In this document: positions 14,803 to 23,505 of the stretch, one piece after another | How the letters are laid out: the number at the start of each line of letters is the position of its first letter | Numbering within the stretch: the stretch's first letter is position 1 | Assembly: GCA_021850705.1 (NCBI GenBank) | Contig: JAJZKU010000010.1 | Coordinates: 1 to 33,519 of the forward strand | Reading direction: 5' to 3' | Length of the DNA stretch: 33,519 nt | Source: Microcaldota archaeon | GTDB taxonomy: Archaea > Micrarchaeota > Micrarchaeia > Micrarchaeales > CABMGC01 | Translations under genes and position numbers: made by a program | The notes under the pieces: generated by a model | What the model saw: only the letters and a program-made list of their open reading frames with translations | Told to the model about the DNA's origin: nothing | Databases searched by the model: none

Positions 14803-16215
14803 TTATCTGTTTCCATTTATCATTTCCTTTAGTTTTTCAGGATTATAATTGTAATGAGAGACAAGTATCTCATACTGCCTTGTCTTTATCTTATCAGAAA
14901 ATCTGCTGTTAACAGAACCTACTATTATGTCCGTTACTACTATCTCATATATCCTGGCGCCTCCTGTATCTTTGATAAGTCGTTCTGCAATTGCCTCCGG
15001 GTTCTGATCTTTGAATACATGTGCCATCAGCAAGACTCCTTTCGGGGACATTATATCGCATGCGAACGAGTAGGTGTCAACCTGCAGGTCATTCTCTTTT
15101 ATGAGATCAAGCATAAATCTCTCTCTGCCCTTTAACCAGCTATCTATATTTATAATATTCAGTATGAACAGCGCATCAAACCTTGATGACAGGTTCCTCA
15201 TATTCACAGTAGCCCTCTTTATTATTCCCCTGTCGATAAGCCTGTGATAAGCGTAATTGGATCTTCCCCTTTCTGTATGAATCTCCCTGTCGATAGAGGC
15301 GAAGTCCGCAGCAGCATTCTTGTTCATTGCCATCAATACATTATATTCCACTTCTGTTATCTGGTCATGCTCTGGTCTCGGCTTCTCCCTTGTTCTCTTC
15401 CATACCTTCTCCTTCAATACCTCGAAGAACTCCTTTCTAAGCGGTATGAAACCCAATCCGCTGAAATACGCCGGAGACATTGTCCATTCAATATCATAAG
15501 AGGATAAAACCTCGCGTGTGAAGTCGTACAGTGCGCCTCTTGCATTGCTGTTAGATTCTGCAACAAGAAGAACTACTATGTCATATTCGCCTTTTGTTAT
15601 CATGGCTGCCTGAACATAAGGATACTTCTCAAGCTCCTCCTTCATCTGATTAAGCACAGGCTTTTTATTGAGGAACTTTCCAAAAGCGACATAATCTACA
15701 TATCCAAACTTCTCTATGTCTATCTCCAGCACATATTCCATATCATATCTTCTCTCAAGGTTTCTCAGATGATATGCCACAGTGGTCTCTTTTATCCCAG
15801 TTATCTTTACAAGCTCAGGTATCGTCTTCCTCGCATCCATACTTAACGCCCTGAGTATATCACGCTCATGCCTTTCCGTCTCCCTTTTCCTTATGCCTTC
15901 ATCTACTATTTTCGTCTCAGCTTCCTTCTGGGAATCCTGCAGAGCCGAAAGCCTCTCCCTGTTCTCTTTTTCCATCTCCTTTAGTTCTTTTGTACGTTCA
16001 TCCCTGTGCTCAGCAGGTATGAACATTCCATCATCTGTGAACCATCCCAGATACTTCGTAACCTTATCTGATCTGCCCTTCTCTTTGTTATACACGCTTG
16101 TAGCCTGGAAGAGCCTGTACCTTCCACGCAGCATCTTTGCCTCAACATAATGGCCATACTCCTTGCGTATGCGTTCAACGGCTCTTTCTATGTTCTCGGG
16201 CAGTTTCTTGGGCAG
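14803..16215 (-). CDS. Large Lrp/AsnC-like transcription regulator, probable CUG start
   Basis: The 470-residue protein has two winged-helix units. The first (about residues 120-165: ERDILRALSMDARKTIPELVKITGIKETTVAYHLRNLERR) is AsnC-like and is followed by an Lrp ligand-type fold (VDYVAFGKFLNKKPVL...YDIVVLLVAESNSN). The second unit is TEVEYNVLMAMNKNAAADFASIDREIHTERGRSNYAYHRLIDRGII, again followed by a sensor-like domain. The annotated-style ATG at 16134 would begin inside a conserved N-terminal block. The frame stays open upstream (PKKLPENIERAVERIRKEYGHYVEAK) with no ATG, GTG or TTG before the in-frame TGA. CTG at 16215 has GGTG exactly 5 nt upstream, and a TATA box (16247-16257) gives a 13-nt leader. 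It probably autoregulates or controls neighbours; ligand unknown. Confidence 0.75.
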   Translation of the reverse strand: MPKKLPENIERAVERIRKEYGHYVEAKMLRGRYRLFQATSVYNKEKGRSDKVTKYLGWFTDDGMFIPAEHRDERTKELKEMEKENRERLSALQDSQKEAETKIVDEGIRKRETERHERDILRALSMDARKTIPELVKITGIKETTVAYHLRNLERRYDMEYVLEIDIEKFGYVDYVAFGKFLNKKPVLNQMKEELEKYPYVQAAMITKGEYDIVVLLVAESNSNARGALYDFTREVLSSYDIEWTMSPAYFSGLGFIPLRKEFFEVLKEKVWKRTREKPRPEHDQITEVEYNVLMAMNKNAAADFASIDREIHTERGRSNYAYHRLIDRGIIKRATVNMRNLSSRFDALFILNIINIDSWLKGRERFMLDLIKENDLQVDTYSFACDIMSPKGVLLMAHVFKDQNPEAIAERLIKDTGGARIYEIVVTDIIVGSVNSRFSDKIKTRQYEILVSHYNYNPEKLKEMINGNR

Positions 16216-16246
16216 ATATCCACCACATAAGTAATGACAGCTTCAG

Positions 16247-16402: not shown

Positions 16403-16413
16403 TCATATATAAT
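16403..16413 (+). promoter_or_regulatory. Box A (TATA) driving the structured RNA/leader
   Basis: TCATATATAAT is a strong archaeal TATA box. A start about 25 nt downstream lands near 16433, exactly at the base of the long hairpin. Confidence 0.55.
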
Positions 16414-16432
16414 AGGTAAGGCATAACTATTT

Positions 16433-16516
16433 CAGCTGGATGAGATGGATTAAGCCCGAAAGGGCCTTGTTCTTGTATCCCCAACCAACCCACCACTCCA
16501 TCTCATCTGCTTTCTT
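16433..16516 (+). ncRNA. Candidate structured small RNA or long leader of the GGDEF gene
   Basis: An uninterrupted 11-bp helix is formed by GATGAGATGGA (16439-16449) and TCCATCTCATC (16497-16507), with two further wobble pairs outside. Inside it is a GNRA-capped hairpin GCCC-GAAA-GGGC (16454-16465), then an unpaired C-rich 28-nt strand ending CCCAACCAACCCACCAC-like (16469-16496). A pyrimidine tract (TTTCTTCTT) follows. The predicted start matches the helix base. I know of no family with this shape: it lacks box C/D motifs and an H/ACA pocket. CCACCAC could pair with GTGGTGG ribosome sites, including that of the divergent regulator. It could also be the 5' leader of the GGDEF mRNA. Confidence 0.55.
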
Positions 16517-16542
16517 CTTAAGCGGGCGACAAAGCTTAAGGA
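16515..16542 (+). repeat. Second hairpin downstream of the candidate RNA
   Basis: CTTAAGC (16517-16523) pairs with GCTTAAG (16534-16540) around a 10-nt loop GGGCGACAAA, with two extra outer pairs. It ends about 47 nt before the GGDEF ATG, so it is either part of that mRNA's leader or a 3' processing structure of the small RNA. Confidence 0.45.
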
Positions 16543-16588
16543 AATCACAGGATTACACTAAAAAAGATAAAGTAGAGGAATTGTTAAA

Positions 16589-17467
16589 ATGACAACGAAG
16601 AGACATGACCATGATAATGGCGAAAAGATTACGGAGCAGACACCAAGACCAACAAACATGCACGGAGCCCACGCTAGGCAACCGATGTCAGTGGAGCGCC
16701 ATACAATACAGTTCTTAAAGGATAAGAATGCAGATTTGGAAGCAAAAGTCAAGAAACTGGAAAATGATAAACACGAATTGATTAAGGCACTAGCAGTTGC
16801 ATCAAGGATATCCCTTGAAAATGACGAGCTCAAGAAGAAAAATGAGGCTCTGGAAAGATTCACACTTGACGGGCTAACTGGTCTGGGAAGAGTTGAGTTG
16901 TTCAACAATAAGGGTTTTCCCGAGGCGTTTGGCAATGCAATGAGGTACGATCTTAACCTTGCCATTATAATAATAGACCTTAATGACCTCAAGAAGACCA
17001 ATGATATTGATAGTTACGAGGCAGGTAACAGGCTGCTCCGCAAAACTGCAGAAGTAATAAAAGAGACGACAAGAGTCAACGATTCAAAGTACAAATTAGA
17101 AGCAGGGTACAGGTGGGGCGGAGACGAATTCATAATAATTGCAAACATACCTGATGGCAATTCAAAAGAAGTCGATTCAAGTGCAAAGAGTATACTGCGC
17201 AGGCTTGAAGATGCTCTGGTTGCAAACGGTGTTAACTGTTCAATAGGAGCATGCGTAATGGCTCCAAAAAGATCCATGCCTGTTGATGAGGACAAAGGTT
17301 CAAGGATAACCTATATGGAAAAGCCCACAGTTGAGCACGAGATTAAACTATCTCGCGGAGATGTAGGCATGATAAGGGACGCAATGTTTAAAAGCGCAGA
17401 GAAAGAGATGAAAAAGGACAAGTCCCACAAGAAAGGGAAGCATATTTCAACTCTGAAGCGCGAGTGA
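16589..17467 (+). CDS. GGDEF-domain protein (putative diguanylate cyclase)
   Basis: The 292-residue protein has an intact GGDEF motif at residues 177-181 (YRWGGDEFIII). The family's earlier blocks are also present: DGLTGLGRVELFNNKGF, then LAIIIIDLNDLKKTNDIDSYEAGNRLLRKTAEVI, which supplies the metal-binding Asp and the LKKTND equivalent of FKxxND. Active enzymes of this family make cyclic di-GMP from two GTP. No RxxD inhibitory site is seen before GGDEF. The N terminus is His-rich and disordered, then a coiled coil (residues 40-90); no sensor or membrane domain is present, and the C terminus is a Lys-rich tail. GGDEF proteins are rare in archaea, so activity needs testing. The cobalamin gene follows 4 nt later. 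Confidence 0.85.
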   Translation: MTTKRHDHDNGEKITEQTPRPTNMHGAHARQPMSVERHTIQFLKDKNADLEAKVKKLENDKHELIKALAVASRISLENDELKKKNEALERFTLDGLTGLGRVELFNNKGFPEAFGNAMRYDLNLAIIIIDLNDLKKTNDIDSYEAGNRLLRKTAEVIKETTRVNDSKYKLEAGYRWGGDEFIIIANIPDGNSKEVDSSAKSILRRLEDALVANGVNCSIGACVMAPKRSMPVDEDKGSRITYMEKPTVEHEIKLSRGDVGMIRDAMFKSAEKEMKKDKSHKKGKHISTLKRE

Positions 17468-23416: not shown

Positions 23417-23505
23417 TCCCTACATTTAAATACTGTCCTGTGAAGACAAGAGTAACTGCTGAAATATGATGAAGTCCATATCGGCTGAGGACAAATGGTG
23501 CTTAG

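Follow-up and report, generated by a model that had tools for sequence, protein, structure and literature searches.

What is the structured element that occupies the intergenic region between a divergently oriented regulator gene and a GGDEF gene in a Micrarchaeota genome, and does it act on the adjacent gene or elsewhere? The window analyzed here, the whole 33,519-nt stretch of contig JAJZKU010000010.1 (assembly GCA_021850705.1, Microcaldota archaeon), had been described in a first-pass annotation as carrying a structured RNA with a C-rich loop at positions 16433-16545, which was proposed to be either a small RNA blocking Shine-Dalgarno (SD) sites or a ligand-sensing leader of the GGDEF mRNA. 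The GGDEF (diguanylate cyclase-like) gene lies on the plus strand at 16589-17467 (Pfam PF00990, E 6.7e-14; TIGR00254). Its product, encoded by an archaeal symbiont, retains an intact RWGGDEF motif and has an I-site that is degenerate by eye. When more distant GGDEF-like matches are included, such proteins were found in 37 of 98 related genomes in total. The divergent regulator on the minus strand (14803-16215) contains an HTH and an Lrp/AsnC-like (RAM) region as well as a second weak HTH match, and its start codon is uncertain, possibly CTG at 16215-16213. For the N-terminal region of this regulator (GRYRLFQATS...YLGWFTDDG), which is conserved throughout the regulator family, Pfam gave no match. 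A 16S match places the window in Archaea, and the named relatives recovered by a profile search from a five-sequence regulator alignment are metagenome-assembled genomes of Candidatus Micrarchaeota.

Fold and predicted transcript start

Folding of 16433-16545 on the plus strand recovered the helix, the GNRA-capped stem, the C-rich strand and the second hairpin that the annotation had placed there. The closing helix P1 consists of a perfect 11-bp core (16439-16449 with 16497-16507; GATGAGATGGA/TCCATCTCATC) lengthened by G-U and U-G pairs, with the 5′ arm at 16437-16449 and the 3′ arm at 16497-16509. It encloses the inner hairpin P2 (16454-16465; GCCC GAAA GGGC), capped by a GAAA tetraloop of the GNRA type, and a mostly unpaired stretch at about 16466-16496, which includes the C-rich strand UAUCCCCAACCAACCCACCAC at 16475-16496 (mean unpaired probability 0.79). 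The second hairpin (UUCUUAAGC/GCUUAAGGA, with GGCGACA in its loop) follows at 16515-16542. The minimum free energy was −36.7 kcal/mol, compared with −25.4 ± 3.5 kcal/mol for dinucleotide shuffles (z −3.27; 0 of 200 shuffles as good), whereas the opposite strand reached a z of only −1.65. An alternative pairing that appeared upon refolding, UCUGCUUU/AAAGUAGA near the SD of the GGDEF gene, was rejected, being by eye unconserved in congeners G002 and G005. In agreement with the annotation, which had recognized no known RNA family, the Rfam 15 covariance models, including those of the c-di-GMP riboswitches, gave nothing at gathering score or at E ≤ 5 on the plus strand of this region, and matches were at chance level only (e.g., mir-1497, 19.4 bits against a cut-off of 80). 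Elsewhere in the window, positions 23436-23490 (plus strand) gave a borderline Rfam match to the C/D-box RNA sR14 (38.3 bits, cut-off 38).

A TATA-type box, TATATAATAG, is located at 16406-16415 on the plus strand, beginning about 31 nt and ending about 21 nt before the helix, and the transcript is predicted to start near 16433-16437. A CATAATATT-like sequence, which recurs between the TATA box and the RNA start (16420-16429 in the window, and equivalent sites elsewhere), may be a promoter element or an operator of the regulator. Using the TATA motif TATATAAAAG, learned from the promoters of the loci described below, we scored the interval between the RNA and the following gene at 31 loci, and TATA-like sites there were not above chance (mean score 1.2, compared with 1.9 in shuffles; p 0.98). 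The promoters upstream of the RNA scored 8.7, though the motif was learned on those same promoters. Locus L127 of G002 was an exception, with a TATA-like site in this interval.

Copies within the genus and in other genera

Equivalent copies, referred to as A-type, occupy the same position in four congeners (G001, G002, G004, and G005). From the inner stem through the 3′ arm, all five A-type sequences are 100% identical, while the adjoining GGDEF proteins share only 49-66% identity and the regulators 62-88%; since the loop stayed identical while the neighboring GGDEF proteins diverged this far, its conservation exceeds chance. Diverged B-type copies were identified on contig C11 of the window's own genome and at G002:C46 and G004:C26, all divergent from paralogs of the window regulator (46-57% identical to it). 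Their downstream gene encodes not a GGDEF protein but an 85-aa protein, which in the C11 copy matched the Lrp/AsnC ligand-binding domain weakly and under the curated cut-off (PF01037, E about 1e-4). Therefore, the element travels with the regulator family rather than with GGDEF.

The first-pass annotation had proposed to look for compensatory base changes in relatives, and these were present in P1: the arms read GATGAGATGGA/TCCATCTCATC, GATGAAGTGG/CCATTTCATC or GATGAAATGAA/TTCATTTCATC, with three pairs altered on both sides and 95% of cells paired. The covariation score over five distinct sequences was 0.269, compared with 0.183 ± 0.032 in shuffles (2 of 500 reached the observed score) and a maximum of 0.138 when the arms were slid. 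This count was made on a trimmed A- plus B-type alignment omitting the variable inner stem, because MAFFT misaligned the 5′ arm of the full sequences, whose inner loops differ in length. The inner stem P2 has another sequence in B-type than in A-type copies and still pairs. The second hairpin was rejected as a core part, its stem being gone in congener G005 and in the B-type paralogs. A search for the exact helix pattern in 79 family genomes gave matches within the genus only.

A common layout extends over several Micrarchaeota genera in the intergenic region divergent from the Lrp/AsnC-like regulator, which is present in 85 of 98 related genomes and often multi-copy. A TATA box is followed by a 5′ arm, rich in G and located where the transcript is predicted to start, then by a C-rich strand and the complementary 3′ arm. 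The divergent intergenic regions of 96 regulator genes were scanned for inverted repeats enclosing 35-95 nt. The results showed repeats at p ≤ 0.05 in 24 regions and at the floor p of 0.016 in 17 (expected about 5 and 1.6, respectively), compared with 5 and 2 of 70 TATA-anchored windows at other loci. The arm sequences change by genus (e.g., CGTTTGTGGGG, GATGGTGGGAA, AAGCCAGGGG, and TGGTGTTGGG), with a consistently G-rich 5′ arm mostly located about 27-33 nt past the start of the TATA motif, and the 3′ half of the loop contains 38% C and 9% G across the family, compared with 19% and 22% overall. The helix is not universal, as some genera show the C-rich strand alone, between other hairpins. 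An RNA-like segment, CUGUUUU..AAACAG-ACCCAACAUACCCAAUCCCAA-hairpin, is strictly conserved in L108 and L110 (genus g10) and in L105 and L128, likewise in divergent position; the gene downstream in L108 and L110 encodes a Nop-domain-type protein (C/D-box RNP core; PF01798 in L108), not a RAM protein.

Leader ORF and alternative readings

The G-rich 5′ arm contains an SD and an ATG at normal spacing at 29 of 48 loci, compared with 7.1 in composition-preserving shuffles and 2 when the stretch was read backwards. The resulting ORF of 25-60 codons crosses the structure. Its frame runs for 25 or more codons without a stop at 86% of the loci, compared with 38% and 34% for the other two frames (one locus per group: 19 of 22 vs. 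13 of 44, p 1e-5). Among loci with no more than 235 nt to the start of the next gene, the stop falls between −10 and +45 nt from the downstream start in 19 of 22 cases, compared with 11 of 44 for the other frames (p 2e-6), or in 10 of 13 compared with 4 of 26 with one locus per group (p 3e-4). These family counts come from incomplete metagenome assemblies, with loci and some start positions chosen by eye and related loci that are not independent; since related loci inflate the uncollapsed p-values, the collapsed ones are preferable.

In the window, the leader ORF of 50 codons begins at the first AUG (16440) within the 5′ arm of P1 and extends to 16592 on the plus strand, where an ATGA overlap joins its stop to the start of GGDEF. 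Both this AUG and a second one (16445) have an unpaired probability of 0.0 in the predicted fold. The equivalent ORF of the four A-type congeners has 41-50 codons and stops 18-32 nt before GGDEF. The SD has been lost in A-type copies, CAGCTGG (window) or CAGTCAG standing in place of CAGGTGG, and no recognizable SD precedes the AUG of the window ORF. Moreover, a 1-nt indel places G000, G001 and G004 in a different frame from G002 and G005 over identical loop DNA, which implied that the peptide is not the conserved thing.

Several leader ORFs showed features of their own. Small ORFs with zinc-finger-like Cys/His patterns (CxxC ... H ... C) were noted in or directly after the leader region at L148, L206, L117, L203, L109, L165, L190, L192, and L202, and the two that were tested had no Pfam match. 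In L148/L206 and L117/L203, Cys and His residues occur in pairs within the leader ORF itself, which by eye appears to encode a small protein of zinc-finger-like type. In G010, the tandem paralogs L190 and L202 have leader ORFs whose first 19 codons (MGCGYSKECFFLSLCYGSP) show five base differences, none of which changes an amino acid, before an indel shifts the frame. The leader ORFs of L171, L172, L199, and L212 (genus g32) share a conserved VL-x-CPP core and stay in frame despite a 3-nt indel.

Neither the paralogous family nor the leader ORF had been noted in the first-pass annotation. From these counts, we propose that the window element is a structured, translated 5′ leader of the GGDEF mRNA, a member of a Micrarchaeota family in which the start of a short ORF is sequestered and its translation coupled downstream. 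We put the probability of this reading at slightly above one half (about 0.52). It is built on the helix and its covariation, the strand, the family, the SD/AUG enrichment, the open frame, the stop position, and the absence of an intervening promoter signal, all of which are observed in sequence.

The readings that compete with it differ in whether the element works as RNA, and if so in cis or in trans. An inverted repeat lying always divergent from a DNA-binding regulator would covary equally in DNA, and P1 might therefore be an operator of the multi-HTH regulator instead of an RNA helix. We consider this very improbable, since the arm spacing ranges over 47-90 nt with no helical phasing, the inner hairpins are nested, and transcription is predicted to start upstream of the repeat. 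In addition, mismatches inside the helices, scored symmetrically, comprise 27 G-T and 11 A-C, an excess suggesting RNA transcribed from the same strand rather than a DNA operator. As for action in trans, an independent small RNA about 80 nt long, terminated by the U-rich tract that follows P1, would pair through its exposed CCCAACCAACCCACC with the GGTGG-type SD sites of the genome, and the strong promoter motif of its own fits such a unit. The complementarity on which the annotation based its SD-blocking proposal does exist, as CCACCAC in the loop matches a minus-strand GTGGTGG (16220-16226) close to the start of the regulator, and this match reflects that GGTGG is the common SD in this genome; specific blocking was not supported. 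Across the loci, C-rich strands paired with the start regions of their own regulator or downstream gene no better than with those of loci unrelated to them (p 0.50 and 0.89 by permutation, respectively), and no second site antisense to the 12-nt core of the window strand (complement GTGGTGGGTTGG) was found within one mismatch in the assembled genome, which is 79% complete. Together with the lack of an intervening TATA signal, so that the downstream gene has no promoter signal of its own, these results favor a leader acting in cis over an RNA that specifically blocks SD sites, and the annotation's other proposal, a leader of the GGDEF mRNA, gains from the usual presence of a co-directional gene and from the ORF overlapping the GGDEF start, with ligand sensing as a possible role. 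A further point in favor of the small-RNA reading is that the terminal helix of A- and B-type copies is followed by the U-rich tract. This tract is missing from most other genera, and we regard the small-RNA reading as unlikely.

A closer competitor accepts the cis leader and dispenses with its translation: the RNA would bind a protein or ligand, the C-rich strand being the recognition site and the window ORF incidental, with the divergent regulator or the small RAM-domain protein as possible binders. Several observations speak for it. The loop is identical in five species whatever the reading frame, ACCCAACATACCCAATCCCAA is kept in L105, L108, L110, and L128 despite frame shifts, and every copy found adjoins this Lrp/AsnC-like regulator family. 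Furthermore, the fraction of Pro codons is alike in the three frames (0.108, 0.093, and 0.111), which led us to reject peptide-level conservation as the source of the C-richness and to assign it to the RNA. However, a non-coding leader leaves the SD/AUG enrichment, the frame-specific openness and the stop position unexplained, and its ligand or partner is putative. We therefore hold it to be possible and clearly less probable than the translated leader.

Proposed mechanism and relation to known systems

In the translated-leader reading, transcription would begin at the 5′ arm or shortly upstream of it, and the nascent leader would fold so that the C-rich 3′ arm pairs over the start of the short ORF, in most relatives over both SD and AUG, leaving the C-rich, G-poor strand exposed. 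Opening of the helix, or a factor bound to the C-rich strand, would then let ribosomes read the leader ORF across the structure. The regulator and its RAM-domain neighbor are candidates for opening the helix or reading the C-rich strand, by position only. Leader translation would end at the start of the next gene and could be coupled to it by termination-reinitiation, for which the ATGA in the window would be suited. Transcription, translation, the direction of control, and the signal are all what we infer from the sequences. Given the lost SD in the window and the frame shift among congeners, what would matter in the window copy is the RNA itself and ribosomes passing over it rather than the peptide.

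Such an arrangement has partial counterparts. The mgtQ leader upstream of mgtB in Salmonella is a structured bacterial leader with a short ORF (PMC8092293). Like it, the element has a short ORF overlapping stem-loops before the gene, and structure in the start region is predicted to control downstream translation; unlike mgtQ, it is archaeal, has its SD and AUG within a helix closing on a C-rich strand, shares no sequence with mgtQ, and its short ORF usually ends at the next start. Translational coupling of overlapping archaeal genes was demonstrated in Haloferax, according to the account of Huber et al. (2019) given in PMC7531240. As in the termination-reinitiation described there, the upstream stop overlaps or abuts the downstream start, whereas the upstream cistron here is a 25-60-codon leader in a conserved hairpin, not an ordinary gene as in the overlapping genes of that account. 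With the bacterial C-rich-loop small RNAs that block ribosome-binding sites, the element shares an unpaired C-rich strand complementary to the SD, but no specific targets were found, a separate transcription unit is not evident, and a co-directional gene is usual. Like the c-di-GMP riboswitches (Rfam GEMM families), it precedes a GGDEF gene and has a GNRA-capped stem; unlike them, it has paralogous copies preceding non-GGDEF genes, in addition to the lack of an Rfam match. Archaeal uORFs are known generally from Ribo-seq of Methanosarcina mazei (PMC11456600).

Our literature search found no paper on this element or on any structured translated leader in Micrarchaeota. Gated short-ORF leaders are already known in bacteria; this Micrarchaeota family is absent from Rfam, and no description of it was found in the literature searched. 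To our knowledge, almost nothing is known of RNA regulation in DPANN archaea.

A broader and more doubtful proposal is that of a lineage-wide module, in which each Lrp/AsnC-like regulator would be paired with a leader of conserved shape and fast-changing sequence, whose C-rich strand would gate ribosome entry to a coding ORF through a dedicated factor, possibly the RAM-domain partner of the regulator. If this were true, the production of c-di-GMP by an archaeal symbiont would be gated by the window leader. A family whose shape persists while its sequence turns over, repeated across several genera next to a multi-copy regulator family, would show leader-ORF control in DPANN archaea, and this control would also be tied to a GGDEF protein.
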